58,263 nucleotides of DNA, taken from the NCBI GenBank assembly GCA_021797675.1, contig JAJZZH010000030.1:1-58263 (forward strand), in the 5' to 3' direction. Below the pieces are notes generated by a model that ran no database searches, was not told where the DNA came from, and was given only the letters and a program-made list of their open reading frames with translations. A program made the translations under genes and the position numbers. Below, piece by piece: positions 13,950 to 38,035 of this stretch (position 1 is the first letter of the stretch; every line of letters begins with the position of its first letter). The DNA is from Bacillota bacterium (lineage in GTDB: Bacteria > Bacillota > Sulfobacillia > Sulfobacillales > Sulfobacillaceae).

Positions 13950-13967
13950 TCACAGGAAAGTGATTCC

Positions 13968-14000: not shown

Positions 14001-14032
14001 GCGGGGCATTCCCGCGGAAGGAGGTGAGACCC

Positions 14033-14239: not shown

Positions 14240-14411
14240 ACCTGATGGCCGCTATCGCCGAGCGGCTGCGGATTATACCGGATTACCGGTCGAGTCGCCC
14301 GTAGTCGGGCAGATGGCGTCACAGGCCGCGTCGATGGCCGATTGGGCGGCCTTGGAGTTTCTTCGCGACCAAGCCCAAAAACTTCATCAAGGATCTCCGT
14401 CGCAACGGTGA
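14232..14411 (+). CDS. Small hypothetical protein coupled to the HTH gene
   Basis: 59 residues, starting at an ATG that overlaps the HTH gene's stop by 8 bases. Ala-rich and partly helical (MASQAASMADWAALEFLRDQ). No family is recognised. The overlap argues for translation with the upstream gene, and the downstream TadZ gene follows with its own ribosome site. Confidence 0.5.
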   Translation: MAKPDGRYRRAAADYTGLPVESPVVGQMASQAASMADWAALEFLRDQAQKLHQGSPSQR

Positions 14412-14480
14412 CCGTGAGACTCGCGGCCATCGACGGATGGGATTCTATTATGCACGCAAACGAAGGAGGTGTTTCTCTTG

Positions 14481-18063: not shown

Positions 18064-18107
18064 GCCGTCGTCGTGCGCACGGAGATTGGGGAAAGGAGGG
18101 CTAGGCG

Positions 18108-18932: not shown

Positions 18933-18969
18933 TCCGTCGCTCCAGGGCGACTTGAAGGGAGGTGAGTAT

Positions 18970-19113
18970 ATGGGATCCAATGATTGGGTGACCGCGGGGG
19001 TCGGCCTGCTGGCCACCGTGGTGCTGGGGGGAATCGTCTATCACTTTTTCCCCAACGCCGTCGGGAACTTTTTCTCGAACACGGTCGGCAACATTCTGGC
19101 CCAGTTCCCGTAA
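18970..19113 (+). CDS. 47-residue Flp-like pilin candidate
   Basis: An ATG at 18970 with AAGGGAGGTGAG just upstream encodes 47 residues with one hydrophobic segment (VTAGVGLLATVVLGGIVYHF) and a small Asn/Phe-rich tail. Size, position after TadC and single membrane segment are those of Flp-type pilins. It lacks the classical Gly-x4-Glu-Tyr prepilin cleavage motif, so processing may differ or be absent. A strong terminator follows, which would make it the last gene of the first transcript and the most abundant subunit. Family call rests on context as much as sequence. Confidence 0.65.
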   Translation: MGSNDWVTAGVGLLATVVLGGIVYHFFPNAVGNFFSNTVGNILAQFP

Positions 19114-19137
19114 TCGACGGGCATCGTGGCGATGCAG

Positions 19138-19175
19138 GCCCCGCGCGCCAGCGTCATGGCGCGCGGGGCTTTTTT
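19138..19175 (+). terminator. Strong intrinsic terminator after the pilin gene
   Basis: A perfect 13-bp stem (GCCCCGCGCGCCA and its complement) with a 6-nt loop is followed by six T. It may also attenuate transcription into the adhesin gene. Confidence 0.9.
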
Positions 19176-19201
19176 GCCCTATTGCGAAGGAGGCGTTCCC
19201 G

Positions 19202-23485: not shown

Positions 23486-23562
23486 GCTAACCATTTCACA
23501 GTTCCAATCCAACCACGTGGCCCCGCACGAGAAGGGTGCGGCGTTTCGCCGCTCTATCTACC

Positions 23563-23601
23563 AGCCAGCCCGGCGTACCGCGTCGGCTGGCTTTTCGTCT
23601 T
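23563..23601 (+). terminator. Intrinsic terminator after the adhesin gene
   Basis: AGCCAGCC pairs with GGCTGGCT across a 14-nt loop that can form further G-C pairs, followed by TTTCGTCTTT. It ends 19 bases before the next start codon. Confidence 0.65.
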
Positions 23602-23620
23602 TCGATGAGGAGGTTTCGCA

Positions 23621-24289
23621 ATGACCGTTCTTACTCGGTATCGGTACCGATGGTGGGCCGCGCTGGGCGTGAGCGCGGCACTGGCAGTGGCTGGCACCCT
23701 TGCTGGCCCCTTCTTTGCCCGCACTTTTGCGAAGGGACCGGACCGGCTGCTGGCTGCCTCTCCCGTTACCGGCTGGACCTGGCCGGCGAATCCCGCGCTC
23801 ATCCCGGGATTGCTGTCGAGTGACCAGGAAATCGCCTTAAATGCCGACGTGTACCCGGTGGCATTCGTGCCCGTCACGGATACGGCCGGCCTTCAGCAGT
23901 TACAGCGTCTAGCAACCACGAAAAGCAACACGCCGCACCGTATCGGCTTTCTTGCGTTGGTGGTGTCTCATCCGAAATCGGACCGGGCAGCGGTCACCAC
24001 CGCCTCGCAGCGGATGCATCGTGATCGCATTACGATACCCTGGGTGGTCGTGCTGGATCCCCCCGCGACCTGGCAGATCTCCGCGATTCAAGTCTATTGG
24101 CCCAAAGCGAACGGGATCGGCCATGCAGTAGGGCCAGCGGCGCTGAGAGCTTGGCAGCAGGCCACGGCGCCAATCGTTGTGACGTCCACTCAAGTGGTGC
24201 CTCATCACCGCACGGTTCCCATCCAGCCGGCGACTGGAACGAAAACCTCCCCCAAAACGGTCTCGAAACCCTTAAGGAGGAAATCCTAA
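23621..24289 (+). CDS. Membrane-anchored extracytoplasmic protein of the Tad locus
   Basis: 222 residues, ATG after GAGGAGGT. One N-terminal hydrophobic segment (WWAALGVSAALAVAGTLAGPF) anchors a soluble domain facing outward. The domain has beta-alpha features and a Pro-containing IPWVVVLDPPATW stretch reminiscent of thioredoxin-like folds, but there is no CxxC. The basic, Thr/Pro-rich tail is flexible. Its stop codon overlaps the start of the CpaB gene by one base, placing it in the Tad operon. No family is recognised. Confidence 0.55.
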   Translation: MTVLTRYRYRWWAALGVSAALAVAGTLAGPFFARTFAKGPDRLLAASPVTGWTWPANPALIPGLLSSDQEIALNADVYPVAFVPVTDTAGLQQLQRLATTKSNTPHRIGFLALVVSHPKSDRAAVTTASQRMHRDRITIPWVVVLDPPATWQISAIQVYWPKANGIGHAVGPAALRAWQQATAPIVVTSTQVVPHHRTVPIQPATGTKTSPKTVSKPLRRKS

Positions 24290-25248
24290 TGCGTCCGATG
24301 GGGTCTTTAACTCGCCGGACTCGGCGACGGGGGATGATTTTGGCCGGACTGGTCGGATTCACGGCCATCACCCTAAGCATGGTCAGCCATCCTCGGTCGA
24401 AATCGGCCGTGCTGGTCGTCGTGACGCGAAAGGCCATGGCGGCGGGCACCGTGCTGACCGCGGCCGATGTCACCACCGAGTCGATGACCGCGCCGGGGTT
24501 GCGGGATAGCGTGTCCACCACGAACGCTGCGATTGGCCATAGCCTCGCGTTTGGCGTCGCGGCTAATCAAGCGCTGGTGACCGGGGATCTGGTGCGCACC
24601 CCGGAATTAGCCGGGCTCAAGTCCAACGAAGTGGCGGTGATGCTGCCCGTGTCCCTGGCGTCCTCGGATGATGCGCAACCGAATGATCGGGTGAATGTCA
24701 TCTGGTTGGGGGGCACCTCCACGACGTCCAGCGCTACCGCTGCCGGTACCGTCATTGCTACCGGCTTACGCGTGCTCTCGGTCCTCAACCAAAACGGCTC
24801 CCCGGTCACTCCCGAAGCGGCCGCGAATGGCCTCAATGCCTCGACGCCGGCCGTCGTGGAAGTGGCGGTCCCCCAAGCCGAAGCCGGCACGATTGCCGTG
24901 GCCGCGTCTTCCGGGCGATTTTGGTTAGCCTTGAATCCCTGGGCGGGGCCGCAGGATGCGACCACGGGAGTTGCGAACGTTTCGGCTCCGATATCGGCTA
25001 TCTTACCGTCCGGTGGAGGGCGGAGCGTAAGTAACCATGGCCTTTCTCCGACAGGAACATCGTTAACATCGACGAAAGGGTCGATCCATGCATCGATTCC
25101 TTCTGGAGGGTCTTTGAAGCCGTCTGGGACCCCTTCGGGAGCGTCGTCCCCTCCCGCTTCTTCAAATGGGACCCATGCCTCCAAGACCCGGTTGGCTTCC
25201 CCAACGAAGACCTCATCGTCCACGACCTCGGCCAGTCATCATGGGTAA
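24289..25248 (+). CDS. CpaB/RcpC-like pilus assembly protein with SAF domain
   Basis: 319 residues from the ATG at 24289, preceded by TAAGGAGG. After one membrane segment (residues 15-33) comes a SAF domain, VVVTRKAMAAGTVLTAADVT, followed by the GHSLAFGVAANQALVTGDLV and MLPVSLASSDDAQPNDRVNV repeats of CpaB. The last 80 residues are a Ser/Thr/Pro/Gly-rich tail. CpaB acts in the envelope in pilus assembly. The stop overlaps the next gene by 8 bases. The family call is secure. Confidence 0.88.
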   Translation: MRPMGSLTRRTRRRGMILAGLVGFTAITLSMVSHPRSKSAVLVVVTRKAMAAGTVLTAADVTTESMTAPGLRDSVSTTNAAIGHSLAFGVAANQALVTGDLVRTPELAGLKSNEVAVMLPVSLASSDDAQPNDRVNVIWLGGTSTTSSATAAGTVIATGLRVLSVLNQNGSPVTPEAAANGLNASTPAVVEVAVPQAEAGTIAVAASSGRFWLALNPWAGPQDATTGVANVSAPISAILPSGGGRSVSNHGLSPTGTSLTSTKGSIHASIPSGGSLKPSGTPSGASSPPASSNGTHASKTRLASPTKTSSSTTSASHHG

Positions 25249-26635
25249 CGCACGGCGGTGGGCGCTCACGCTCGTGGTTGTTTCGATTGGATGGGCAGCC
25301 TTAGCACTCCATGGTTGGCGCGGTGATGTCCGCATGGACCAAGCGATTGGGCTCTGGACCCTGCATCACGGGCGATTGCCGTCTCGCAATCACTGGACCG
25401 TGGCCGCCCTCAATCATTCCTTTTCGGATACCGAATGGCTGTATGCGGTGATGGTGGCGCTGGTTGGTCGATGGGGCATTTATATTCTTAGCGGACTGGT
25501 ATGGACGGCGCTGACCATCTGGGTTGTGCAGTGGTTGGAGCGATGGCCGTGGCCATGGTCCGGCCTGGCGGCGGTGGGCTGGGCACTGCTCATGGTACCC
25601 CTGATTCCTCCACGCCCTGAACTCTGGAGTTATCTCGGGTGGTGGGGCACCTTGATGTCCCTCGTGGCCTATCGCGCACACCGGCGGACTTCAGGGCTAT
25701 GGATGATGGCTGGGATGACGCTGGTGTGGGCGCAGATGCACCGGAGCGCCTGGCTTGTGGTGGCGGTGTTCACGTGGGAACTCCTCCTGGGCGATCCGAC
25801 CCGGCGGAAGGGCTTATGGGGGCCTGCCCTGCTGAGTTTGGTGGCCCTGATGTTGCCACCGGCTGGAGGGCTCAGCGGTCTCACGTTTTTGGCGCACGTC
25901 GGGCATTTCGGATCGGATGGCGTGCTGAATACCGTCGCCGAATGGTTGCCTCCGAATGTGCGCACGGCCTGGGGCCTGACGTTCCTCGGCATCGTGTGTG
26001 GCATCTGGGGCAGTCTCGCAGGATGGCTGTGGCATCGCCAGGATCGGGTGGGGCTGGGTTGGCTCGTCTTGGGCACCATGGCCGCCATGGAAGCCACGCG
26101 CCTCGCTCCGTATGCGTTGTTAGGCTGGATCGTCTTAGCCACGCCTCGGATGCAGGTCGTCCGAGCAGCCAGGTTGCCGCACTGGTGGACCGGAGTAGCC
26201 GTTGGAGCGGGGCTCTGGATTGCGACCGCACCCTGGCTCATGGTGATGAAGGCGGGGATTTTTCAGCCCTCCTGGCCACCGGCAGCGTTAATGGCACTAC
26301 GTCGGGCCGGAGCCACTACCAATATCCTCGCCTATCAAGGCGATACCTTGGTCGGCACCGGGATGCGGCCTTGGGTCGATGGCCAAGTGCAAATGGTGGA
26401 TACGGCCCCGTGGTGGCCTGCGTGGATCGACACCGAGCAAGGTCGGTGGTCACCTGCGGCGTTCGTCGCCCGATGGGACCCGAGTGCTCAGGCGATTGTC
26501 TGGCCAACTCCACGACCTGGCCTCCCTGCGTTGACGCTACCGAAGCCATGGCGTCCTATCTGGCACGGACCGATTCGCTGGGTTGGCACCCAGCCGACTC
26601 TCACGACGATTTGGGTGCGGTCCCAGGGTCGTTAG
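25241..26635 (+). CDS. Polytopic membrane protein, GT-C glycosyltransferase-like
   Basis: 464 residues with about 10 predicted membrane helices. After the first helix comes RMDQAIGLWTLHHGRLPSRN and then FSDTEWLYAVMVALVG, the Asp-containing outer loop pattern of GT-C-like proteins. A C-terminal outward domain contains GTGMRPWVDGQVQM, which matches the fold usually found at the end of these proteins. A role in glycosylating pilin or the secreted adhesins is an inference from operon position. The start overlaps cpaB, so co-translation is likely. Confidence 0.55.
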   Translation: MGNARRWALTLVVVSIGWAALALHGWRGDVRMDQAIGLWTLHHGRLPSRNHWTVAALNHSFSDTEWLYAVMVALVGRWGIYILSGLVWTALTIWVVQWLERWPWPWSGLAAVGWALLMVPLIPPRPELWSYLGWWGTLMSLVAYRAHRRTSGLWMMAGMTLVWAQMHRSAWLVVAVFTWELLLGDPTRRKGLWGPALLSLVALMLPPAGGLSGLTFLAHVGHFGSDGVLNTVAEWLPPNVRTAWGLTFLGIVCGIWGSLAGWLWHRQDRVGLGWLVLGTMAAMEATRLAPYALLGWIVLATPRMQVVRAARLPHWWTGVAVGAGLWIATAPWLMVMKAGIFQPSWPPAALMALRRAGATTNILAYQGDTLVGTGMRPWVDGQVQMVDTAPWWPAWIDTEQGRWSPAAFVARWDPSAQAIVWPTPRPGLPALTLPKPWRPIWHGPIRWVGTQPTLTTIWVRSQGR

Positions 26636-26702
26636 GCAGAGAATCACCCACCTACAGGATAGCCGACTCTTAGCGAGAGACTGAGATCAGGGAGGAATAG
26701 GC

Positions 26703-26978
26703 GTGCTATGGACCTTGGTATGGGCTGTGAGCATTAGCGTAGGGTTTGCCATCGAGCCCGTCGTCCTATGGCATGCGTTGCCCAAGGAAGGCGAGCAGAC
26801 CGGCGGCCCTGGGCGACTACGCAACAGCCAGTGGCTGGTAGTTTTCCTGATGGCTGGGCTGGTCTTGGCAGGCTGTTTGGCATGGCCTCCCTTAAAGTGG
26901 GTGCTGTTCACGGTCATGGTGGGGTATGGGTCCCTGTGGTTGCGGTGGCTCTATCCTGGGTCTATGTTGGATGGATAG
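26703..26978 (+). CDS. Small membrane protein
   Basis: 91 residues from a GTG start with GGGAGG 8 bases upstream. About three hydrophobic stretches make it an integral membrane protein. No family recognised. Its 3' end overlaps the convergent CPBP protease gene by 17 bases. Confidence 0.5.
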   Translation: MLWTLVWAVSISVGFAIEPVVLWHALPKEGEQTGGPGRLRNSQWLVVFLMAGLVLAGCLAWPPLKWVLFTVMVGYGSLWLRWLYPGSMLDG

Positions 26979-27660
26979 CATCCGTCGCACGATCAGATGC
27001 CTCGTTTGTCCACGGACAGGACCACTGACGGATACGCCGCAATATCTCGCGGCGATCCGTTCGCAAGACCAAAGTGTTCCATCCAACATGGAGGATTCCC
27101 GTGGCGACCGTGGCGAGAATTACAGGAACCCATGGGATTTTTGCCATGCCGTGGGTTAGAGCAGGATACCATTCCGCCCAGATTACCCACCATACGGCAG
27201 ACAAGACCAAGCTGTGCCAACTCAACCGTCGTAAAGAAACCACCATTGCGCCCGCCGGCATGACCGGCAGTTCGGGGTAGCGGCGAGCGATCTGGGCGGC
27301 TTCTCCTACATGGGCATACACCCACAGTACTTGACCCAGAACATACAGACTGATTCGCGTCAATGCGGGCCACAGGCCTGGTTGGATCGGAATCTCCAGC
27401 ACCAACAGACCAGGGATGCCGCGAAAGACGATTTCTTCGGCGATCGGACCCAATACGGTGCGGGTTAGCAATCGGAGCCAGGGATCTTGGGCCTCGCAGT
27501 GGCTGACGGCTTGAAACCAACGCGTGACATGCTCCTGCCAGGCAGGCACGCTTCGGAACTGACGTTTCCAGGTCCATCGCGTAGCCCCCAGTAATGCCAA
27601 GCCCCCTACGAGCAACACCCCGAGCGTTTCCACTATTGCGGTAAGGATGTGCATGTTCAT
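26962..27660 (-). CDS. CPBP-family (CAAX/Abi-type) intramembrane protease
   Basis: 232 residues with several membrane helices. The three CPBP motifs are present: EEIVFRGIP (Glu-Glu-x3-Arg), WVYAHVGEA with His, and ILHVGWN with His-x3-Asn. The family cuts membrane-associated substrates and serves roles from prenyl processing to bacteriocin immunity. It is the only gene in the Tad block on the minus strand apart from 32386. The locus has no visible TadV/PilD-type prepilin peptidase, so this protease could process pilins, though that is speculative. The start is uncertain because two ATGs stand close together. Confidence 0.8.
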   Translation of the reverse strand: MNMHILTAIVETLGVLLVGGLALLGATRWTWKRQFRSVPAWQEHVTRWFQAVSHCEAQDPWLRLLTRTVLGPIAEEIVFRGIPGLLVLEIPIQPGLWPALTRISLYVLGQVLWVYAHVGEAAQIARRYPELPVMPAGAMVVSLRRLSWHSLVLSAVWWVIWAEWYPALTHGMAKIPWVPVILATVATGILHVGWNTLVLRTDRREILRRIRQWSCPWTNEASDRATDAIHPT

Positions 27661-27934
27661 GAAGACCCTTCTTCGTCGAATAGATGGAAAAGTCCTTCCG
27701 ATGGGGTTCGCCAGACCCCATCCTGGGGCGTGGCATATGGATCTTTGGATGGTCTTTGCGGTGGGTTACAGCATTTGTGTGCTGTTCGGATGGCATTTGA
27801 TCGTGGGGCGATGGATTTGGCCGAAACAGTGGGCGACCGTGCTGAGACGGACCATGGTCGCGGGAGGATTGTGGATCTTGTGGGGCGGGGCCATTTTGAT
27901 GCTGTGGGCGATTAGCCTAATGGGCCGTGGTTGA
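27653..27934 (+). CDS. Small two-helix membrane protein
   Basis: 93 residues. ATGs at 27647, 27653 and 27659 compete; 27653 gives the best distance from AAGG. Two hydrophobic helices (MVFAVGYSICVLFGWHLIV and VAGGLWILWGGAILMLWAI) indicate a membrane protein. Its start overlaps the divergent CPBP gene by a few bases. No family recognised. Confidence 0.5.
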   Translation: MFMKTLLRRIDGKVLPMGFARPHPGAWHMDLWMVFAVGYSICVLFGWHLIVGRWIWPKQWATVLRRTMVAGGLWILWGGAILMLWAISLMGRG

Positions 27935-28082
27935 TCTCGATCTATGAGCCATGGCCACCGCCACGCTCGTTCCGAGGTCATGATTTTCCGGGCAAACACA
28001 CCGATTCCTTGGGGTTGTAGGAGATCCTGCGCCTATTTACGACGTTGGCGGCTTATGTCCTGCATAGATAGGGAGGTTGACC

Positions 28083-28496
28083 GTGACGCTGACAGAACTG
28101 TGGCGCGGTTGGTGGAAAACACATCCGAACGCCCGGCCAATTGCAGAAATCGTTTCGACAGATCGAGACCTTGCGTTCTTATCGTCGTTGATTCATCAAT
28201 TTCCGACTAGTAACGGCGGTGATCAATCGAAGGCTCTGTGTCCGATGGATTCGCCATCGGGCGATAGGCACCCAACCGACGTCCAAGACGAGCCGATAGA
28301 AATGAAAGAGCCGAGACCATGGAGAAAGGACCGAGACGATGCATTGGCGTTGGACGTGGAGGAAACGCGGTCTGGTGCTGGGCCTGGTGCTGATGGCCCT
28401 GGGGGCGTCAGCATTCACCGACCCGACCCTTCCGGTGCCACCGGGAGTGCAGGCAGAAAGCAGTCGGACTCATTACCAACGGATTATTCAGAGTGA
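28083..28496 (+). CDS. Hypothetical protein, 3' part overlapped by the next gene
   Basis: A GTG at 28083 with GGGAGG 6 bases upstream opens a 137-codon frame. The first 50 residues look coding (TELWRGWWKTHPNARPIAEI, DRDLAFLSSLIHQFP). The rest is low-complexity and overlaps the next, better supported gene by 158 bases. A frameshift or an earlier end is possible. No family recognised. Confidence 0.35.
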   Translation: MTLTELWRGWWKTHPNARPIAEIVSTDRDLAFLSSLIHQFPTSNGGDQSKALCPMDSPSGDRHPTDVQDEPIEMKEPRPWRKDRDDALALDVEETRSGAGPGADGPGGVSIHRPDPSGATGSAGRKQSDSLPTDYSE

Positions 28497-28716
28497 CCAG
28501 CGGACCGTGGCCCATGTCCGAAATATGCGACATCAGACTCCATCTCATGGGTCTCCAGGATCTCCTAGGACGCTCGATCACCGAACTTCCCTGCCGAAAT
28601 GGTTAGCCGTGGCGCTGATTGGACTGGTGATCGTCCTCATAACCGGGATGATTCTCACAGCCAAACGTCGACGCCAAAAACAGGAAAATACTATAAACCG
28701 TCGAAGTTTTCGTTAA
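28339..28716 (+). CDS. Secreted, C-terminally membrane-anchored small protein
   Basis: 125 residues, ATG after AAAGGA at 8 bases. An N-terminal signal sequence (RGLVLGLVLMALGASAFT) is followed by a soluble stretch, a C-terminal helix (WLAVALIGLVIVLITGMIL) and a basic tail (AKRRRQKQ). This topology, without an LPXTG motif, is that of a surface-displayed protein held in the membrane. It precedes two larger secreted proteins on the same strand. Confidence 0.55.
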   Translation: MHWRWTWRKRGLVLGLVLMALGASAFTDPTLPVPPGVQAESSRTHYQRIIQSDQRTVAHVRNMRHQTPSHGSPGSPRTLDHRTSLPKWLAVALIGLVIVLITGMILTAKRRRQKQENTINRRSFR

Positions 28717-28735
28717 TAGGAAGGAGCGCACCAGT

Positions 28736-29716
28736 ATGCAACGACGATTCCGATGGATGCTGAGCGGGCTGACGAGCGTGGTGCTTTTGGGGGCAGGGGT
28801 ACCGGTGTTTGCTGCGAGTGGGTTGGCCCCGAACGGATTGCTGAAAGCAAAATACAATCCGTATGCGGGAGACCCGCCGATGACCGCGTGGGCTTGGTTT
28901 TCTAGTGCCGGTGGTCCGACATTTCTGTTTGGCACCAACGCCGAAGCTTTTCCGTTTCCGATCGTACCGCAGCGTTTAGCTCAGGCCTGGCAGGCCCATC
29001 CGATCGATAATCCGGCGCCGTTGATTTGGTATTACCAGCATGTTTCGAAGACCGACTTTGGCAATAGTGTCTTCGGCAACGGGGTCAAGTATTCGCTCAA
29101 ACTGATTCGCATCATGAAGTCGGATCACTTTGCGCCCGCGCTAGTCGGGGGCGTAAATCCACCGAATTGGAACGCGGTGCCCGCGCCATCAAAGCCCATA
29201 TCGCCCATTTCTGTGAATCCCGCGAACCCGAATGCGTATCCGCAGAACACCACCGTGCTCGGTTGGAAATGGCTAATCGGTACGGGATCCCATCAAGCGA
29301 CCTTCCAGTTTTCGTTCCATGAACCCTCGGGATCAGTAGGGGCCATTACCGGCACTCAGACGGTTCACGGCTCCTGGATCCAATTTCCACAGGCCTGGGC
29401 GCGGGTGGATTCGGTGACCGTGCTCAAGGACTTCGCTGCACATGCGCCGAGGGTCTTTGAGCAGACCGGATTGGCTCCAAAAAACCTCGGTCTACACTAT
29501 AGTGCTGACCTGGCGGCGGCCATGACGGTACAGAACTTCAATCCGGGATCGCTGGGGATGCAGCCACTAGCTCCTTCGCCGAAGGCGTTGACACCGGCGA
29601 CGGAAACCTGGCTTATCAAGCATGGCTGGGGCGATGTTCTGGCCAAGTATGCCACGAGTCACCATCTAACGTTGCCAAGTAGCACCAAGAAGGCGTCCAA
29701 GGCCAAGCATTTGTAA
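28736..29716 (+). CDS. Secreted protein of unknown function
   Basis: 326 residues with a clear signal peptide (LTSVVLLGAGVPVFAASG) and an expected cut after AxA. The mature part is rich in Trp, Pro and Asn (AWAWFSSAGGPTFLFG, WKWLIGTGSHQATFQF) with a beta-rich character and ends in a Lys-rich tail. GGAAGGAG precedes the ATG. It is followed 33 bases later by another large secreted protein, so both are probably cargo or surface parts of the element-encoded apparatus. Confidence 0.6.
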   Translation: MQRRFRWMLSGLTSVVLLGAGVPVFAASGLAPNGLLKAKYNPYAGDPPMTAWAWFSSAGGPTFLFGTNAEAFPFPIVPQRLAQAWQAHPIDNPAPLIWYYQHVSKTDFGNSVFGNGVKYSLKLIRIMKSDHFAPALVGGVNPPNWNAVPAPSKPISPISVNPANPNAYPQNTTVLGWKWLIGTGSHQATFQFSFHEPSGSVGAITGTQTVHGSWIQFPQAWARVDSVTVLKDFAAHAPRVFEQTGLAPKNLGLHYSADLAAAMTVQNFNPGSLGMQPLAPSPKALTPATETWLIKHGWGDVLAKYATSHHLTLPSSTKKASKAKHL

Positions 29717-29749
29717 CCCGCCCAGCATCCACCACAGGAGGAACTTGAT

Positions 29750-32320
29750 ATGTCTCGCGCACCGCGGGCCACGTTGGCAGCGGCGCTGGCAGGCCTCATG
29801 GGCCTGATCGGCGCCGTTCCCGTGTTTGCGGCCCTGATTCCGCAGTACGATATGACGTTGCAACGCACCCGCGATATTACCGGCAGCGGGAGCCACGCGA
29901 ACCAATTTTATGATGTGCATCCGGTCTATTTGCAGATTCCCGGGGGGACCGCCTCCAATTCCACGCCAACCGTCATCGGAAACACGGCTTATCAGTACAC
30001 CTTCAGCGCTGGCGGGATAGGATATCTCTCAGCCATCACGATTCCCTCGATGACGCCCGCGCAGGTGAAGGCGCATCTGGCCAGCGGGGGGTACTGGGTT
30101 CGGACCGCGCGGTATGCCGCGCCGCCCATCCAGTTTGACGTGGGCCAGTCTCCCAGTGGCCAGAACGAAGCCAATGGTCAGGACTCTCTCACCACCGGAC
30201 CCTATACGACCACGACGGGAACGGGGACCTTGGCTGGGAATACCGCTTATCAGGCGATTGCAGTGGGCCACAACTTGTACACTTGGCCACAGGCGGCCTA
30301 TCCCACGAGTGGTGGGCCGACAGGGCAAAAGACTCAAATTAAAGGCAACACCGGCAATACCGATTACCAAGTCGACGTCAGTCCTCTGATTACGCCGCCG
30401 GTGCCGGTGACCGGAACCTTGATTGCTACAGGAAAATCGTATTCTTGGAGTTCCCCAGTGGCCGTGGCGGAATCGTGGGATGGCGGCGCCGTCGCATCGC
30501 CAGTGGACGTGCCGAGTGGGGTAATCCCTCCGACCTATCGCTACACCACGTCCCAAACTAGCCCTGGCGGGATTGGCGCAGCACAGTACCCCAGCGCCAC
30601 CGCTCCACTCACCTCCGACCCGGTATGGATCGGATCGGCCGACGGCATGGGCAATGCCGTGGTGGCGTTTGGAGTGGCCAGCTTGCACCATCCTCGGGTG
30701 ATTTTGTGGAACGTCGTCACCGGAGAGTACAAAGCGATTGGCGTGGGCCAGATTGGGACGAAGATTTGGGATGCCCCCTTGTATGACGCGACCAACGGCA
30801 CGCTCTACGTGCAAGACGCCTATGGCGGGCTCTACGCCTTTAGCGTGGCCACCGGGGCATTAACCGGCGTCTATGCGCCGAGTGGCTGGACGAATACGCA
30901 CCAGCTGACCATCGCGAAGGATCTGGCGCTCGATGGCAACGTGCTGTACGCGGTCGGGGAAGGCAACACCGCCATCGGGGCGTTCAAGCTGAACTTGCAA
31001 CCCCTGTGCGACACCGGCACGGGCGTGACCCTCAACGGCTGCACCGATGTGACCGCGGCCTATGGGCCCAACGTGAATTCACCGACCGTGCTGACCGACA
31101 GCAACGGGAACACGACGCTGGTCATCAACAACGCGCAAGGCGACCTCTGGCTGGAATCGTCGCAGGATTTGTTCGCCGTGCACGGAGGAACCTATAACCA
31201 GACCCGGGTGGTGCCGCTGGGCAGTTCCTACATTGGATTTCTGCCCGATGCCGGCAGCTCGGGCGATCTGATCGGCTGGACGAATACCGATCCGAATGGC
31301 CAACCCGCGTTGGTGGTGTTCGTGCCAGAACCCTACCACGTATCGATGGCCGTGTCTTCGGCCACGGTCGCGTCGGGTGGCACGGTCACTCTCAGCGCCA
31401 CCCCGTCGCCCTCAGGCGTGACCTGGGATGGCGGGAACAACCCCTATTCCGCGGATGGGACCATTGCTCCGGTAGCCTATCGCATCGTAGGCCCCACGGG
31501 CTATCTCTATCAACCCGGGGCGCCGTATCAACGCGTGAATGGCGGCTGGGCCGCGACGTGGAGTCCGCCGCCGAACACCACCGCATCACCCGAGACGTAT
31601 ACCATCACGACCACCGCCATCGACGAGCTCGGGCAGGCCGCGACGTCCGCAACCACCACGGTGACCGTGGAGCCGGTGCAGCCCGCGACGCAGAATTCGA
31701 CGGTCGGCGATTTGACGCTCACCTGCGGATATGGCGGTGGAGGTCTTCCAATTACGGTTCCGCACACCTGCACCATTCCCAGCAGTGTGTCGGGGAATAC
31801 GGCGGCCTGGTTCGTGCAGAACCCGCAATATGGGGCCAAATTTGGCGATACGATTCGGCTGACCCTGCAGATTCCGCCACCGTCGTTGCCAGCGCAGGAC
31901 ACGGTGGACAGCGTTGCTCTGACGGCACAGATGCCCTATACCCAAGGCGTGGCCAATGCACCCGGCAATCGCGGGTACGTGCTAGGCACCGGAAATTTGT
32001 ACAATGATTTTCCGGCGACCTTGCATCTGACCCAGACGGGGACCTATACGGCCACGGGCCATGTGATCGAGTCGTGGGACGGCTATCCGCCGGATTTGGC
32101 GAACGCCAACATCGGGGATACCTACACCCTCACCGTGGACTGGAAAGCGATGGTGCATTACAGCTATCCGTCGGAGGTGGCGTGTCCGACCACCAAGGAC
32201 CTCCAGAAACAGTGCCCGACCACCGATTATGGAACCGATACGTATACGGGCAGTGCGGATGCGCCAGTGACGGTCAATGGGACCGATTACTATGTCATTG
32301 CCACCCCGATTGGGTATTAG
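29750..32320 (+). CDS. Large secreted protein with beta-propeller-like and Ig-like regions
   Basis: 856 residues, ATG after AGGAGG. Signal peptide: ALAGLMGLIGAVPVFAAL. The middle (about residues 270-520) has PQQ-like propeller blades (VQDAYGGLYAFSVATGALTG, LALDGNVLYAVGEGNTAIGA). A downstream Ig-like part starts at SSATVASGGTVTLSATPSPS, and a Cys-containing C-terminal domain follows. Surface or extracellular role is likely. It ends the plus-strand gene run before a strong terminator. Host-region genes at 49597 and 55226 also encode propellers, but of a clearly different subtype. Confidence 0.7.
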   Translation: MSRAPRATLAAALAGLMGLIGAVPVFAALIPQYDMTLQRTRDITGSGSHANQFYDVHPVYLQIPGGTASNSTPTVIGNTAYQYTFSAGGIGYLSAITIPSMTPAQVKAHLASGGYWVRTARYAAPPIQFDVGQSPSGQNEANGQDSLTTGPYTTTTGTGTLAGNTAYQAIAVGHNLYTWPQAAYPTSGGPTGQKTQIKGNTGNTDYQVDVSPLITPPVPVTGTLIATGKSYSWSSPVAVAESWDGGAVASPVDVPSGVIPPTYRYTTSQTSPGGIGAAQYPSATAPLTSDPVWIGSADGMGNAVVAFGVASLHHPRVILWNVVTGEYKAIGVGQIGTKIWDAPLYDATNGTLYVQDAYGGLYAFSVATGALTGVYAPSGWTNTHQLTIAKDLALDGNVLYAVGEGNTAIGAFKLNLQPLCDTGTGVTLNGCTDVTAAYGPNVNSPTVLTDSNGNTTLVINNAQGDLWLESSQDLFAVHGGTYNQTRVVPLGSSYIGFLPDAGSSGDLIGWTNTDPNGQPALVVFVPEPYHVSMAVSSATVASGGTVTLSATPSPSGVTWDGGNNPYSADGTIAPVAYRIVGPTGYLYQPGAPYQRVNGGWAATWSPPPNTTASPETYTITTTAIDELGQAATSATTTVTVEPVQPATQNSTVGDLTLTCGYGGGGLPITVPHTCTIPSSVSGNTAAWFVQNPQYGAKFGDTIRLTLQIPPPSLPAQDTVDSVALTAQMPYTQGVANAPGNRGYVLGTGNLYNDFPATLHLTQTGTYTATGHVIESWDGYPPDLANANIGDTYTLTVDWKAMVHYSYPSEVACPTTKDLQKQCPTTDYGTDTYTGSADAPVTVNGTDYYVIATPIGY

Positions 32321-32333
32321 GAGCGTGGGGATG

Positions 32334-32373
32334 CCGTCGGCTCTCGCGACCCAGCGAGGGCCGACGGTTTTTT
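32334..32373 (+). terminator. Strong intrinsic terminator
   Basis: CCGTCGGC plus an inner CTCGC pairs with GCGAG and GCCGACGG around a short loop, followed by six T. It ends the secreted-protein operon. Confidence 0.9.
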
Positions 32374-32385
32374 CTTCAGGCCACG

Positions 32386-33135
32386 TTAGCGAGCCTGAGG
32401 CAATCTCGGGATAAAGTCGATGTGGGCGTTCTGCAACACTTCCCGACACTGCGGAGTATCCCGCCATAGAACTTGTCGGCTTTTCCAGGCCATGCCGATA
32501 GCTGGAGCAATGACCACGTCGCTATCACCAAGTAGGCGCCTGAGGCACGGTGACATCCAAGCTTGATGCAGCGTGCGGGGAAGCAGCTTTTGTGCGACCC
32601 ATAGATAACTGAGTGCAACGTACTGCCACGACCACTTGGACGGGACCTCTCTGACGCTTAATGGAGCCCACTGCGTGGGAAGGATTGTGAGGTAAACGAT
32701 AGTGGCAGGATGCTTGGCTGCAGCTTGAGCGCAGTCTTGAATGCTTGCCCAGGTGTAAAATCCGTTACCTAAGAAAATTGAAGTTGCAAGATCGAATCGA
32801 ATGCCACCCTCGAATTTATGGCTAAGGTCGGGGGAAATGTGCCAAAACGAAAGACGGCAAGTTTCTGTTGGAGGCAAGGCCATTCGGTGGATCTTTGGAT
32901 GATAGATTCCTGCCACGATGTCCCAGACCCACTGCCAGGGAAATACCGTAACGAACAGGACCATCACGGCCAAATACCATCCATTGCTTGTTTTAAACAA
33001 AAGCCACGCAGCCCAGAAAAACGGGAGGACTACAACACTAAAGGCGGCTAGCAACCATGTGCGCTTAGCGATAGCCGTCCATTCGTTCGTACGAAAGGAG
33101 GTGCCGATTCCTTTGTTCCTCGCAGTATTGCTCAT
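32386..33135 (-). CDS. Hypothetical membrane-associated protein
   Basis: About 249 residues if started at the ATG at 33135; an upstream in-frame extension is low quality, and no ribosome site was found for any start. Two hydrophobic helices (LLAAFSVVVLPFFWAAWLLF and WYLAVMVLFVTVFPWQWVW) are followed by a soluble domain with a Cys/Trp pattern. No family recognised. Its 5' end overlaps the TTG start region of the plus-strand gene at 33113, so the real start may lie further in. Confidence 0.5.
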   Translation of the reverse strand: MSNTARNKGIGTSFRTNEWTAIAKRTWLLAAFSVVVLPFFWAAWLLFKTSNGWYLAVMVLFVTVFPWQWVWDIVAGIYHPKIHRMALPPTETCRLSFWHISPDLSHKFEGGIRFDLATSIFLGNGFYTWASIQDCAQAAAKHPATIVYLTILPTQWAPLSVREVPSKWSWQYVALSYLWVAQKLLPRTLHQAWMSPCLRRLLGDSDVVIAPAIGMAWKSRQVLWRDTPQCREVLQNAHIDFIPRLPQAR

Positions 33136-33433
33136 GGGGTTCATTGTACTATTTCCGCATTGGTTTCCGCACCTTCCACTAGAGACCGTGGTATCCCTCG
33201 CCGGAATCGCCGTCGTGATTGTCATCGTGATTTGGAACAGCGGTCTGTTTGTGGTAAACCGTGTCCGACGCATGCGGCACCAAGGTCCTTGGGGACACCA
33301 GTCTGGCGACTATAATGCGGAATTCCTCGGTTTGGTGAACCGTTATCTGCCGATGTACACCGCGGTCTGGTTGGTATTGATGGCTTGGGTCGGACACGCC
33401 GGAGGATTCGCGCAAGCCATTCAGGGACTCTGA
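33113..33433 (+). CDS. Membrane protein preceding the TadE-like pseudopilin
   Basis: 106 residues from a TTG at 33113, 11 bases after AAGGAGG; a later ATG at 33134 is an alternative. Helices: FLAVLLMGFIVLFPHWF, VVSLAGIAVVIVIVIW and a C-terminal MYTAVWLVLMAWVGH. Followed 34 bases later by the TadE-like gene. No family recognised; co-expression with the pseudopilin is likely. Confidence 0.5.
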   Translation: MFLAVLLMGFIVLFPHWFPHLPLETVVSLAGIAVVIVIVIWNSGLFVVNRVRRMRHQGPWGHQSGDYNAEFLGLVNRYLPMYTAVWLVLMAWVGHAGGFAQAIQGL

Positions 33434-33467
33434 CGATGAGGAGAACGGTCACGAGAGGAGGTAGGGC

Positions 33468-33974
33468 ATGGCCACCCAATATGTAATGCTGATGATTCTC
33501 ATGTTTCTTGGCATCGGAACGACTGGGTACTTTGCCGCCATTCACTCGGTTGCCATCGCCCGCGCCACCATGAGTCGGGACATGCAGATTGCGTTGCAAC
33601 AGACGGCCGATACCGCCGTGACCCTCAATCCCACGACGGGAAGTCAATGGACCAAAACCACCGACCCAGGGTCATCCGTGGAAGACACCTTTCAAACAGC
33701 GCTATCCCAAGTGCTCACCGGGACGCCCTGGGCGTCCATGTCGATTGATGTCAAAGCGTTTCAGGTGTATACGCTGGCGGACATCGGCCAGCCTGCGCCG
33801 TGGGGCTATCCGGGCACCACGATTAGCGGTCCCGGGTACTATGCCGAAGTCACGTTTCCCTGGAAAGTACTGTCGTTTCTGCCGTCCGTAACGGTGACCG
33901 TGCCGGAGGTGATGCAGGCGAACAGCTTGGTGGAACCGGGGAATGTCTCCCCAACCTGGAACCCGCATGGATAA
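33468..33974 (+). CDS. TadE/TadG-like pseudopilin
   Basis: 168 residues, ATG after GAGAGGAGG. The N-terminal hydrophobic segment (YVMLMILMFLGIGTTGYFAA) is followed by a helical HSVAIARATMSRDMQIALQQ spine and a beta-rich C-terminal part (VKAFQVYTLADIGQPAPWGY). This is the layout of TadE-type minor pilins. It lies at the end of the Tad block. Confidence is limited because no invariant motif defines the family. Confidence 0.6.
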   Translation: MATQYVMLMILMFLGIGTTGYFAAIHSVAIARATMSRDMQIALQQTADTAVTLNPTTGSQWTKTTDPGSSVEDTFQTALSQVLTGTPWASMSIDVKAFQVYTLADIGQPAPWGYPGTTISGPGYYAEVTFPWKVLSFLPSVTVTVPEVMQANSLVEPGNVSPTWNPHG

Positions 33975-34057
33975 TCGTGCTGATGAGTCCACCGGTCTTT
34001 TTCCTGGGTGGCCACATAGGTTCAAATGAAACCGTTTTGGAAGGGAGCGCCAACCCG

Positions 34058-34237
34058 ATGCACGTTACCATTCGATTTGTGGACGCTCATGGTCAGCCTA
34101 TTGATGATCCTACCCCTCAACAATTAGAACGTCTAGCCAACGCCTACGCAGCAGTCGTGCTGGCCGCAACCTTTCCCGGCGCGACGTTTCAGAACCGCGA
34201 GACGGCTGCTCCGGCAGCCACCGCGCAAAGCCTCTGA
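34058..34237 (+). CDS. Small hypothetical protein upstream of the integrase
   Basis: 59 residues from the ATG at 34058 with GAAGGGAG upstream. Sequence such as TIRFVDAHGQPIDDPTPQQL and an Ala-rich helix look coding. No family recognised. It ends 42 bases before the integrase start. Confidence 0.5.
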   Translation: MHVTIRFVDAHGQPIDDPTPQQLERLANAYAAVVLAATFPGATFQNRETAAPAATAQSL

Positions 34238-34267
34238 TGAGCGCAGGGAGGCCGCTGTACTCTGGGT

Positions 34268-34273
34268 TATACT
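34268..34273 (+). promoter_or_regulatory. -10 box of the integrase gene
   Basis: TATACT ends 6 bases before the integrase ATG, and no ribosome site separates them. The transcript would start at about the ATG, so the integrase mRNA is probably leaderless. A convincing -35 box was not found. Confidence 0.5.
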
Positions 34274-34279
34274 AACGAT

Positions 34280-35809
34280 ATGAAAACGAAGACGATCCCG
34301 TCGACTGCTGAAGAGCCAAAGCGAGCCGCTCTATATATCCGTGTATCCACGGATGAACAGGCAGAAGAGGGCATGTCGTTGGATGCCCAACGGAAAGCGC
34401 TGGAGTTGTTTTGTCAGCAGCAAGAGTATGTGGCAATCGAATGTTTTACCGATGCAGGAGAGTCAGCGCGGTCCGATAAGCGACCGGCGTTCCAGCAGAT
34501 GATTGCGACGGCCAAACAATCCCCCAAACCGTTTGACGTGATCTTGGTGCATAAAATGGACCGCTTCGCCCGCAATCGCGAAGATAGTGCCGTCTATAAG
34601 GCCCTCCTCCGGAAGGAGCTAGGCATCGATGTGGTCTCTATCACCGAGCGTTTCGACGACAGTCCTACCGGCAAACTGACCGAAGGCATCATGGAAGTCA
34701 TCGCGGAGTTCTATTCCGCAAACCTGGCCCATGAGGTCCTGAAAGGAATGCGGGAGAAGGCGTCTCGGGGACAGGCCCTAGGATTAGCTCCCTTGGGGTA
34801 CCGGATTGGAGCAGACGGCCGGTACGAAGTCGTGGAGGAGGATGCCGCGATTGTTCGGTGGATCTTTACCGAATACGTTGATCATCAACGCGGAATGAAT
34901 GGCATTGCCGTATGGCTTAAAGATCACGGGGCCACGCAGTTTGGAGGTCGGGCCGGGGCGATCAAATGGTCCTTGCCGGGCGTAAAACTAATTTTGCAAA
35001 ACCGTGCCTATCTTGGAGAGTTTCATTGGTCCACGCGGCGTGGGGAATCGGTGTTTGCCATCCCCGACGCGCATCCGGCCATTATTACGCCTGCACTCTT
35101 TGAGCAGGCGGAGCAACGGATTGCAAACCGCGGACGAATGCCGCGGACCCCATACGGGGATTATCTCCTACGGGGTCTAGGGCGCTGCGCCTTCTGTGGG
35201 GGAGGGCTTATTTTCAACCGCCAGTACAATGGGTGGACCAAAGGTCAGGGACGTTCCAATCAGCCCTCGACCTACAAGGATATCTTGGTTTGCGAACGAT
35301 ACTATCGATACCGATGTGAAAAAGGTGTCCGCAATTGGATCGCCGTCGACGAGGCAGAGGCCGCGATTTTGGGAGCGATTCAGCGTGTGGTTGACGGTAG
35401 TCTTACGCTGGAAGCTGACCAGATTGTCTGGGCGGGCCGAGAACGCATCGCCCGGCAGATCGCGGCATTGCAACGCAAGCTAGCGACTGTTCAAGAAGGC
35501 TTTGATCGCCAACTTATTGCCTTCGAACAGGGGGTGTTGGACCTCGACGACTTGCGTACGGCGAAGGCGCGTCTGCTTCACACCCGAGAAGAGATTGAGG
35601 AGCAACTGCGAGGTCTCCAACAGCAGCGCGAGAGTCAAGTCGTGCCAACGGATCTGCTGAAGCGATCTCTAAAGTCGTTGTTACAGGAGTGGCAAGACGG
35701 GCAGCCGTTAGAGGTGCGACGCCGCGCCATCGGCGGAGTGCTAGATCACTTCACGTATGATCGCCGGGCGGACGCCCTGGAACTCGTGTTTCGTATTCCG
35801 GACGCCTAG
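34280..35809 (+). CDS. Large serine recombinase (site-specific integrase)
   Basis: 509 residues. The N-terminal resolvase domain has AALYIRVSTDEQ with the catalytic Ser, then KMDRFARNRED and VIAEFYSANLAHEVLKGMREKA. A recombinase domain follows (APLGYRIGADG, AYLGEFHW), then a zinc ribbon (CAFCGGGL ... CERYYRYRC), a coiled coil (about residues 390-455) and a C-terminal strand. This is the full layout of large serine integrases that join attP and attB without supercoiling. The gene ends about 15 bases before a chromosomal ylbJ-like reading frame resumes, so it is almost surely the integrase of the element. Some relatives excise elements from sporulation genes. Confidence 0.95.
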   Translation: MKTKTIPSTAEEPKRAALYIRVSTDEQAEEGMSLDAQRKALELFCQQQEYVAIECFTDAGESARSDKRPAFQQMIATAKQSPKPFDVILVHKMDRFARNREDSAVYKALLRKELGIDVVSITERFDDSPTGKLTEGIMEVIAEFYSANLAHEVLKGMREKASRGQALGLAPLGYRIGADGRYEVVEEDAAIVRWIFTEYVDHQRGMNGIAVWLKDHGATQFGGRAGAIKWSLPGVKLILQNRAYLGEFHWSTRRGESVFAIPDAHPAIITPALFEQAEQRIANRGRMPRTPYGDYLLRGLGRCAFCGGGLIFNRQYNGWTKGQGRSNQPSTYKDILVCERYYRYRCEKGVRNWIAVDEAEAAILGAIQRVVDGSLTLEADQIVWAGRERIARQIAALQRKLATVQEGFDRQLIAFEQGVLDLDDLRTAKARLLHTREEIEEQLRGLQQQRESQVVPTDLLKRSLKSLLQEWQDGQPLEVRRRAIGGVLDHFTYDRRADALELVFRIPDA

Positions 35810-35835
35810 CCTTTGCTAAATAAATTCAGGTGATC
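35810..35835. other. Probable attachment-site region (right junction)
   Basis: Homology to the YlbJ family begins in frame at about 35823 (Asn-Ser-Gly-Asp-Pro-Leu-Phe), just after a TAA in the same frame at 35817-35819. The crossover core should lie in or near this stretch, which includes TTCAGGTGATCC. The exact core cannot be set without the left junction. Confidence 0.6.
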
Positions 35836-36701
35836 CCCTCTTCATTTTTGGGGCAGTCGCTGTCGGCATGTTTGGTCAGCCGGCGCTCGGCGTGGTGCTT
35901 GCCGCCGCGCATTATGTGGGCGCGTTACTGGTGGGTCTCACTTACCGGTTTTACGGCAGTCGTCGTGGGCATCGCCACCACGGGCAGGGAGTGGTTGTGC
36001 ATGGAATCTTTCGCCGGGCCACCGATGCGATGATTCGCGCTCGGATGGAAGATGGTCGTTCAATGGGCCGCGTGCTGAATGAGGCGATTTCAGAATCCAT
36101 CGCCACGTTGTTTATGATTATGAGTTTCATTGTCCTGTTTGCCGTGATGCTACAGGTCTTGAGCCGAACAGGAATTCTGGTAGGATTGGAGCTTCCCCTG
36201 GCGGCAGGTTTTCATGCTCTCGGGCTGTCACCTCAATTGGTTCCGGGAGCCGTGAAAGGGGTGTTTGAAATCGATCTGGGCACGGCCGGAGTAGCCAAAG
36301 CCAACGCTCCTTTGATGGATCAGATGGTCGTGGTTTCCGCCATCATCGCCTGGTCGGGCTTGGCAGTTCATGGTCAGGTGGCGTCGGTCCTCGCCGACAC
36401 GGACATTTCCATGAAGCCGTATTTCTTGGCCCGATTTCTGCACGCCGTATATGCAGGCATTCTGACCGTGGTGCTATTTCGGCCGGTCGAGGCGCTTTGG
36501 GGAGGCGTGGCTTTGCCCGTGTTTGCCGGCCGAGATTTTGTGGTGAGCCATCCGACGGCACCGAGCCTGCTGGACGCATTGCACTTGAGCTCGGTTCTGC
36601 TGGCGGGATCTTTGATCGCGCTCTTGGTCGGAGCGAGCAGCGTCGGAGTGCTGACCATGCTGCGCGTGCGTTGGTTAGCGTCTCGCCGTCACCCAAGCTA
36701 G
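35820..36701 (+). pseudogene. ylbJ: 3' part of a YlbJ-like sporulation membrane protein gene, interrupted by the element
   Basis: 293 codons open from just after an in-frame stop. The protein starts inside the conserved NSGDPLFIFGAVAVGMF region and runs through YlbJ/nucleoside-recognition segments (KGVFEIDLGTAGVAKANAPL, SGLAVHGQVASVLADTDISM) to a natural C-terminus. The N-terminal roughly 100-130 residues expected for YlbJ (about 400 residues) are missing and no start codon with a ribosome site is present before the ATG at 35868. YlbJ is needed for heat-resistant spores in Bacillus and is made in the mother cell. The 5' part should lie at the other end of the element, left of this window. Confidence 0.8.
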
Positions 36702-36752: not shown

Positions 36753-37061
36753 TTGGGGATCACGGCCATGGGCAGGTTTTTCTCGTTGGTAGCCTTTGTG
36801 GTGGCGGGAGGAAGTCTGTGGGCTGCTGTGGACCGATGGGCAGGGCTGTACAGCCGATTGGTCGCGGCCGGGGGGGAATTGGTATTCTTCTGGACACCGT
36901 GGTCGCGGCTGGGGGCGGGACTTTTCGTTGCCGGCGCGGGCTTGACTGTGTACCATATGTACAACGGTAAGTACTGGCGGACCCATTCGTCAAGCCGACA
37001 AGATGCGATAGAATTGATCGAATTGATAGCGTGGTTGTGGATGTTGGCAGCATTGCGATGA
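36753..37061 (+). CDS. Small membrane protein coupled to pfkA
   Basis: 102 residues from a TTG at 36753 with GGGAGG close upstream; an ATG at 36768 is the alternative. Two hydrophobic stretches (FFSLVAFVVAGGSLWAAV, LGAGLFVAGAGLTVYHMY). No family recognised. Its stop overlaps the pfkA start by ATGA, so the two are co-translated. Confidence 0.55.
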   Translation: MGITAMGRFFSLVAFVVAGGSLWAAVDRWAGLYSRLVAAGGELVFFWTPWSRLGAGLFVAGAGLTVYHMYNGKYWRTHSSSRQDAIELIELIAWLWMLAALR

Positions 37062-38035
37062 GCATCGGGGGGACAACTTTGCAGTTTGCAGTTTTAACGT
37101 CTGGCGGGGATGCGCCGGGAATGAATGCCTGTATTCGTGCAATCGTCCGGCAGTCGATCTATATGCATCATGAGGTATGGGGGATCGTACGGGGCTATTT
37201 GGGACTGATCGAAGGCCATCGGCGGCGACTCGGACTCGGTTCGGTGGCTGATTTGATCAAAACCGGGGGCACCTTTTTACGGACAGCGCGATGCTTGCCA
37301 TTTCTTAATGAGGACGGGCAGGAGATGGGTCGCGACCGCCTGCGGGCGTGGGGCCTGGACGGTTTGATTGTGGTTGGCGGCGACGGTTCCTTGCGAGGAG
37401 CGCTTGCGCTCCATGGCCTGGGCGTGCCGGTGATCGGGATACCCGCCAGCATCGACAACGACATTTTTGGGACTGATCACGCAATCGGTTTTGATACCGC
37501 CATCAACAACGTAACTCATTCCATGGACCAAATCCGCGACACCGCCAGTAGCCACGAGCGTGTCTTTGTCATCGAGGTCATGGGGCATACCAGTGGGGCG
37601 ATCGCGGTGGCGGCGGGGGTGGCCGGCGGAGCGGAGACGATCCTCATCCCTGAAGTGCCGTTGAATTATGAAGCCATGTTGACCAGACTGAAACATTCTC
37701 GGGCACGGGGAAAGCGCCATAGTTTAATCGTTGTCGCCGAGGGCGCCGCCAAGGGCGACGACGTCGCCAACTTCATCAAGAGCAAGACCGGGTATGAGGT
37801 CCGACTTTCTGTGCTTGGCCACACGCAGCGCGGCGGCCCGCCCACGGCTTTTGATCGGATCTTGGCGTCGCAACTGGGAACGTTTGCCGTACAGTTGCTG
37901 GCTGAAGGTAGATCGGGCGTGATGGTGGGGAGACAACGCGGGGAACTCACGACGACCTCACTAGATATCGCGGTGAACACCCATAAGGGTCCGGATCTTG
38001 AGCTTGCCCAATTGGCGGCCATCTTAGCCATCTAG
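37058..38035 (+). CDS. pfkA: ATP-dependent 6-phosphofructokinase
   Basis: 325 residues, close to the usual 320. VLTSGGDAPGMNA, VVGGDGSLRG, PASIDNDIFGTD with the catalytic Asp, SHERVFVIEVMG and LGHTQRGGPPTAFDR follow in family order. It phosphorylates fructose 6-phosphate at C1 in glycolysis in the cytosol. GGDG points to ATP rather than pyrophosphate as donor. The position equivalent to E. coli Arg162 (EVMGR) is His here (EVMGH), an unusual change in a substrate-binding residue. The ATG at 37058 is chosen for the ATGA overlap; a TTG at 37079 would also fit the family N-terminus. Confidence 0.95.
   Translation: MSIGGTTLQFAVLTSGGDAPGMNACIRAIVRQSIYMHHEVWGIVRGYLGLIEGHRRRLGLGSVADLIKTGGTFLRTARCLPFLNEDGQEMGRDRLRAWGLDGLIVVGGDGSLRGALALHGLGVPVIGIPASIDNDIFGTDHAIGFDTAINNVTHSMDQIRDTASSHERVFVIEVMGHTSGAIAVAAGVAGGAETILIPEVPLNYEAMLTRLKHSRARGKRHSLIVVAEGAAKGDDVANFIKSKTGYEVRLSVLGHTQRGGPPTAFDRILASQLGTFAVQLLAEGRSGVMVGRQRGELTTTSLDIAVNTHKGPDLELAQLAAILAI

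Follow-up and report, generated by a model that had tools for sequence, protein, structure and literature searches.

The locus studied here raises the question of whether a mobile element has split a sporulation gene, and whether that gene could be restored when the element leaves. The window, i.e., the whole stretch of 58,263 nucleotides that was analysed, is the entire contig C92 of a draft genome (G000; 4.06 Mb in 242 contigs, 96.6% complete, 3.1% contamination). A sequence-only reading had placed a full-length large serine recombinase just before a ylbJ frame, and both were found as described, the recombinase at 34280-35809 and the frame open from 35820. In a profile search this frame (35820-36701) matched TIGR02871 (YlbJ) at positions 118-327 only (E 2.3e-52). 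The missing N-terminal half, predicted to lie beyond the left edge of the window, was present on contig C188 of the same genome (3189-3637), where it ended in a matching attL; TIGR02871 positions 4-126 matched at C188:3282-3650 (E 2.9e-37). These two pieces, which lie on separate, unlinked draft contigs and meet at profile positions 118-126, were the only ones in the assembly in a search at E up to 10, and the same search of the 4.06-Mb, 96.6% complete assembly found no second intact ylbJ.

About 25 relatives had, as anticipated, an intact ylbJ whose product reads straight across the split site. Neither of the outcomes named beforehand as contrary was encountered, i.e., an intact second ylbJ elsewhere with no 5' fragment or homologues naturally starting at ATG 35868: only a 5' half was found, and a natural short protein from ATG 35868 was ruled out because every intact homologue continues through the site. 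The frame had also been thought to open within the YlbJ motif NSGDPLF. The DPLF part of that claim stood, but the codons resembling N-S-G (35820-35831) are element sequence similar to attB, namely the attR arm; genuine ylbJ sequence begins at the Asp codon at 35832, and the restored product reads FTNSA-DPLF. The phosphofructokinase-like gene in the chromosomal flank (Table 1) had homologues 83-96% identical downstream of ylbJ in G001, G006, G010 and G014.

Table 1 Features of the window and extra ylbJ 5' halves in related genomes. Positions are those of the window unless a locus and contig are named.
Feature	Position	Strand	Evidence or remark
Right part of ylbJ-intervening element	1..35833	.	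attR/attL dyad 22/24; contig starts inside element
Schlafen AlbA_2 / AbiTii protein	2810..3835	-	Pfam PF04326, PF18864; PADLOC AbiTii
Cytosine methylase	4631-5719	+	Pfam, PADLOC
NgoFVII-type restriction enzyme	5721-6677	+	Pfam, PADLOC
Vsr endonuclease	7576-8019	-	Pfam, PADLOC
TadA/VirB11-like ATPase and two T2SSF (TadB/TadC-like) proteins	15746..18932	+	Pfam PF00437, PF00482
1412-aa protein with Big_1/invasin D3 bacterial Ig-like and CarboxypepD_reg domains	19247..23485	+	Pfam
59-aa ORF directly upstream of recombinase	34058..34237	+	Conserved position in relatives
Large serine recombinase, 509 aa	34280..35809	+	Pfam Resolvase 6.9e-33, Recombinase 4.9e-17; phrog_95 integrase 4e-106
attR, element-side arm (P half-site), AGCCTTTGCTAAATAAATTCAGGT	35808..35831	+	Inverted-repeat match 22/24 to C188 attL arm
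Crossover dinucleotide GA, first two bases of Asp codon in NSA-D-PLF	35832..35833	+	Junction comparison
3' half of ylbJ (spoVV)	35832..36701	+	TIGR02871 118-327; own start codon absent
Phosphofructokinase-like gene, chromosomal flank	37031..38035	+	Named by sequence pattern; conserved downstream of ylbJ in relatives
Extra 5' halves	L028 (G014 C22) 879-1319 and 10968-11414
Extra 5' halves	L059 (G040 C123) 2668-3093 and 8950-9381
Extra 5' halves	L057 (G042 C60) 6559 and 9516
Extra 5' halves	L183 (G441 C6); L034 (G006 C180)

Comparison of the two junctions located the crossover at the dinucleotide GA. On C188 the sequence reads ...TTC ACC AAT TCG GCC / GA ACC GAA ATT TAT TTA GCA AAG G, and the 5' half runs to FTNSA and then into an out-of-family tail and a stop (...NSAEPKFI-stop). 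In the window it reads ...AG CCT TTG CTA AAT AAA TTC AGG T / GA TCC CCT CTT CAT TTT, where the Asp codon at GA opens DPLFIFG; here attR leads from the recombinase end straight into the ylbJ 3' half, which has a stop codon ahead of it and lacks any 5' half. A shared core had been expected near 35810-35835; the GA dinucleotide and a partial similarity were there, a long direct repeat was not, and the signature is instead an inverted repeat between the element ends. The repeat pairs the window arm that precedes GA with the C188 arm that follows GA (ACCGAAATTTATTTAGCAAAGGCT), and the two match at 22/24. In the joined state they form an attP that is dyad-symmetric about GA (22/24 matches), and a dyad around the crossover dinucleotide is the layout expected for the attP of a large serine recombinase. 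None of 200,000 random pairs drawn from the element reached >=18/24, and the own-element attL/attR pairs scored 22 (G000), 18 (G033), 18 (G391) and 15 (G026) out of 24. That the window attR and the C188 attL are the ends of one element is strongly supported by this match. The left end corresponds to C188:3636-6295, at least 2,660 bp, which with the first 35,833 bp of the window gives a lower bound of at least 38.5 kb for the element.

Joining the two halves in silico at GA gave FTNSA-DPLFIFG in frame and a 421-aa protein that scored 315.7 bits against the TIGR02871 cut-off of 304.65, compared with 178 and 129 bits for the separate halves; the proposal that excision would restore the gene was upheld to the extent that precise rejoining at GA works in silico. 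The crossover point was also well conserved. Among all attL copies compared, every one but one (AA) left ylbJ after GA; at the order level 10 of 11 5' copies did so right after GA, the AA being that of G006, and in a leftover copy of G042 GA was kept and the resemblance to ylbJ lasted a few codons longer. The attR copies of G000, G002, G033, G026 and G391 all rejoined ylbJ at GA.

C188 also carries relaxase-primase and MobC/NikA-like genes (L023, 342-2872) directly upstream of the ylbJ 5' half and outside the element, which probably belong to an older mobile element next to the same site. The possibility that C188 is a small circular plasmid with a piece of ylbJ was discarded, as the contig ends have no terminal overlap.

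The split was found in other genomes as well. A survey of 42 genomes of the order showed ylbJ intact through the site in most, and both halves with no intact copy in G000, G033 and G026; G002 had an attR plus an attB-type contig, and partial forms occurred in G001 (3' half only found), G011 (5' half only found) and G014. Several of the comparison genomes are metagenome bins, in which coexisting attB and attR sites may reflect a mixture of strains. Among 398 genomes scanned across the phylum was a closed one, G391, by its length probably Symbiobacterium thermophilum IAM 14863. In this single contig of 3,566,135 bp, ylbJ is split by 73,942 bp (GA at 300,336 and 374,278), a recombinase of up to 532 aa adjoins attR, and the att arms match at 18/24. 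Its congeners G443 and G444 have ylbJ intact, and the joined G391 product was identical to the intact YlbJ of G443 at 367 of 416 positions. In the bin MAS3.bin161 (L095, 2237-4178) a ylbJ 5' half ended in an attL reading GCC/GA-ACC, with a recombinase (43% identical) at the opposite element end, convergent with ylbJ. The split state spans several genera, two families and one closed genome and, judged from these sequences, ylbJ is a new and recurrent site for element insertion, at the same two bases.

In B. subtilis YlbJ is SpoVV, a sigma-E-controlled dipicolinic acid transporter of the mother cell in the outer forespore membrane, and its loss lowers the number of heat-resistant spores more than a million-fold (PMC5629000). 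The host genome of the window has a full-length spoIVA, and most 5' halves in the window's family are preceded by a sigma-E-like promoter, e.g., TCATACT-N14-CATAGTAT. The 3' half of G000 compared with that of G001 gave a dN/dS of 0.07, equal to intact pairs (0.02-0.25), and 7 vs 8 unique amino-acid changes; the split halves of G391 gave 0.06-0.18, and for G391 vs G443 the unique changes numbered 3 vs 3 (5' half) and 10 vs 7 (3' half). The evolution of the split halves resembles that of intact genes, with purifying selection and no rate acceleration, a pattern also compatible with a very recent insertion. In contrast, the leftover 5' copy in G002 (G002a) gave a dN/dS of 0.80 and 6 vs 0 unique changes. 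This extra half was tried as a partner of the G002 attR and rejected, with 11/24 matches only; it is a decaying leftover.

The 509-aa recombinase is proposed to be both integrase and excisionase of the element. Homologues adjoin ylbJ halves in G002, G391 and L095, and in G026 one sits 3 kb from attR. Its best NCBIfam relatives were CcrB (119 bits) and CcrC (113 bits; cut-off 900) and XisF (109 bits; cut-off 375), i.e., it falls far below the cut-offs of the Ccr (SCC) and XisF families and the relationship is distant. The small ORF directly upstream of it had no NCBIfam match; ORFs of 50-60 aa occupy the same place in G000, G002, G026 and G042 (32-54% identity), and G391 has one of 68 aa in the equivalent position. 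We regard the 59-aa ORF as a candidate recombination directionality factor because it is conserved beside the recombinase, in the manner of the factors known from gin, SPbeta and the skin element of C. difficile (PMC5595907). Of all tetramers, only CATA, which forms the -10 core of promoters read by the mother-cell sigma factors (sigma-E, sigma-K), occurred 25-65 nt ahead of each of the five small ORFs; any tetramer was present in 5/5 in 1% of shuffles, and the test, picked after inspection of the sequences, is graded only as a hint. A search for two-block sigma-E promoters ahead of the recombinase and the small ORF exceeded shuffled sequence in G042 and in none of the other four genomes.

Related recombinases were also seen away from ylbJ. 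In G042 (C5; L058, 10460-12040) a 46% homologous recombinase with the same small ORF sits in a sugar-nucleotide/glycosyltransferase-like cluster, adjoining a dTDP-glucose 4,6-dehydratase-like gene. Others adjoin a truncated start of what we take to be cotJC, downstream of a presumed cotJB, in Anaerosolibacter carboniphilus DSM 103526 (L102, ~10420-10560) and in a Cellulosilyticum bin (L099, ~11465-11650); both are cut at the same point (...QLGGP and ...QFGGP), and cotJC appears to be a further interrupted spore-coat gene, in both of these genera.

The element carries restriction and defence genes (Table 1), a TadA/VirB11-like ATPase region that matched TIGR03819 of NCBIfam at 1e-47, below the cut-off, and a 1412-aa Ig-domain protein that is likely a surface protein. 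Its part on C188 encodes a replication initiator/DnaD-like protein and an IstB/DnaC-like ATPase. Adjoining the restriction-modification cargo (window 10490-12928), an IrrE-like peptidase and an HTH regulator resembling a CapP/CapH pair stand beside a 496-aa uncharacterised protein. No phage structural, terminase or lysis genes were detected with Pfam and PHROGs among the proteins scanned, which took in part of the small ORFs, and by its gene content the element is not phage-like. A phage origin was considered and set aside: there were no structural genes, the nearest phage and plasmid recombinases were <36% identical, and viral contigs yielded one 35% relative. Relaxase and MobC genes were found only outside attL on C188, the TadA/VirB11-like ATPase and T2SSF proteins lie inside, and the middle of the element is possibly absent from the assembly.

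Some assemblies hint at excision. One contig of G002 carries a 5' half, an intact attB and the 3' half in continuous order; its final 124 bases recur unchanged behind attR on the contig with the recombinase. In G014 the 3'-half contig begins at GA and has exactly 141 bases in common with the attB contig. Contigs of G001 and, in another family, of G070 end exactly at GA as well. Such breaks may reflect the presence of both attB and attR, because assembly graphs break there when both occur. G002 is a metagenome bin, so that mixed strains are an alternative explanation for the coexisting sites.

Extra ylbJ 5' halves ending in attL stand upstream of intact ylbJ in G014, G042 and G441, and further ones lie on other contigs of G040 and G006 (Table 1). 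In the tandem pair of G040 the element arms are identical and the 5' halves different. Homology between loci does not reach further than the region immediately ahead of the ylbJ promoter; the neighbourhood beyond usually differs, congeners included. Within one genus, G006 and G014 are 97% identical over the 3' half and ~84% over the 5' half, the switch falling exactly at the GA crossover. Because of the tandem 5' halves and this switch of ancestry, the sequences suggest, as the best explanation, that some insertions deliver a replacement promoter and 5' half, rebuilding ylbJ.

The element could have entered ylbJ by a chance choice of att site and inactivated it, in a host whose sporulation is lost or declining, with excision serving for transfer only. 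Any integrase element could in principle excise for transfer, developmental excision is a step that we infer, and the two-block sigma-E search was negative in four of five cases, all of which accords with this account. It sits poorly with the lack of relaxed selection or rate acceleration in the split halves of G000, G033 and G391, when the leftover G002a shows what decay looks like (dN/dS 0.80), with an intact SpoIVA, and with a split repeated in several genera, two families and a closed genome; we consider it unlikely.

An assembly or binning artefact, in which contigs of different organisms or replicons were brought together and the split is an assembly break, would be in keeping with a draft of 242 contigs and 3.1% contamination. 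However, the contigs extend 2.7 kb and 35.8 kb into non-ylbJ DNA past the junctions, which lie at one and the same codon and have the 22/24 dyad in common, and the same architecture lies inside the closed chromosome of G391. An assembly break was rejected as the cause because element DNA with matching arms follows on either contig, and an artefact of any kind is extremely improbable. Just as improbable is that the window element repairs its target with a replacement ylbJ 5' half that it brings along, which would make excision unnecessary. Tandem 5' halves in G014, G040, G042, G006 and G441 and the ancestry switch in G006/G014 show the basis for such an account, but at the window attR the recombinase end lies directly on the 3' half, preceded by a stop and with no 5' half; the genome has a single 5' half, and the sequence at 35800-35840 contradicts this account for the window locus.

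The whole is best explained, with high probability in our judgement, by an excisable insertion in ylbJ that is a probable developmental switch. The interruption of ylbJ was confirmed, and its reading as a switch is strongly supported save for excision during sporulation, which is a predicted step. An element of at least 38.5 kb would have integrated at attB inside ylbJ (spoVV), leaving, in the integrated state, a 5' half ending in ...NSAEPKFI-stop and a 3' half with no start. The recombinase, probably with the small upstream-encoded protein as directionality factor, would recombine attL and attR at GA, and the predicted products are an excised circle whose attP is a near-perfect dyad, and a ylbJ that is full-length and in frame. 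Excision would most likely take place in the mother cell during sporulation, because ylbJ is needed there and DNA lost there is not inherited, and because there is precedent in skin, SPbeta/spsM, vfbin/spoVFB, gin/gerE and yin/yabG. A non-phage element with restriction and defence genes would then persist by making sporulation dependent on its recombinase.

With somewhat better than even confidence, we propose that ylbJ is a recurrent docking site for diverse, mostly non-phage serine-recombinase elements of Sulfobacillus- and Symbiobacterium-like hosts, with two life styles, excising and 5'-half-delivering. If so, dipicolinate loading would depend on mother-cell excision of the interrupting elements. 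The others would bring their own promoter and 5' half and form a chimeric ylbJ on insertion, with tandem 5' halves as the remnant; site-specific recombination would in this way reassemble a core sporulation gene from foreign halves time after time. Judging from the 5'-half replacement in relatives, integrase elements may reshape a core developmental gene by this route, and the closed genome provides a directly testable case of insertion at the same two bases.

The sporulation genes already known as interrupted include sigK, spsM, spoVFB, gerE and yabG. The statement that no case had been described in ylbJ agreed with our search of the open literature (subscription papers lay outside it), which returned no interruption of ylbJ/spoVV. 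With ylbJ/spoVV added to this short list of sporulation genes split by mobile DNA, the phenomenon would extend to deep-branching spore formers known mostly from metagenomes. The element lies in a mother-cell sporulation gene of which it splits the only copy found, carries its own recombinase and has attL and attR sites whose recombination would restore the frame, all of them structural features of sporulation gene-intervening elements. By structure the locus can be classed with them, and developmental excision is proposed by analogy.

The likeness to skin and SPbeta noted in the sequence-only reading is well supported as a way of working, with excision in sporulating cells as its predicted step. 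Skin in sigK (Bacillus subtilis, Clostridioides difficile) likewise has an internal large serine recombinase in a mother-cell sporulation gene whose frame can be restored, whereas the ylbJ element targets ylbJ/spoVV, is not phage-like and has its recombinase at the attR end, its excision being predicted here from sequence. SPbeta in spsM (B. subtilis) shares a recombinase with a separate small directionality factor (a candidate here), dyad-type att sites and a mother-cell target gene, but is an active phage, and the ylbJ element had no phage structural genes among the scanned proteins. This absence places the ylbJ element nearer to gin in gerE (Bacillus cereus ATCC10987, PMC5595907), which is also non-phage, measures 28.6 kb, encodes a large serine recombinase and interrupts a sporulation gene. 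Gin requires a small extra factor, GirX (PMC5595907), for which the ylbJ element has a candidate small ORF; it differs in having three recombinase genes, another target and a 9-bp att consensus (PMC5595907). The SCC elements (CcrA/B/C) and the fdxN element with XisF, the best NCBIfam relatives of the recombinase, have other targets and hosts; SCC elements accrete in tandem and return the end of their target gene, as some ylbJ-site elements seem to do. Finally, vfbin in spoVFB (B. weihenstephanensis) and yin in yabG (C. botulinum, PMC10747680) are likewise intervening elements in sporulation genes, and spoVFB shares the dipicolinate pathway with ylbJ. Both are prophage-like and have other target genes, and yin was reported as unique to one strain (PMC10747680), whereas the ylbJ site is used across many genera.
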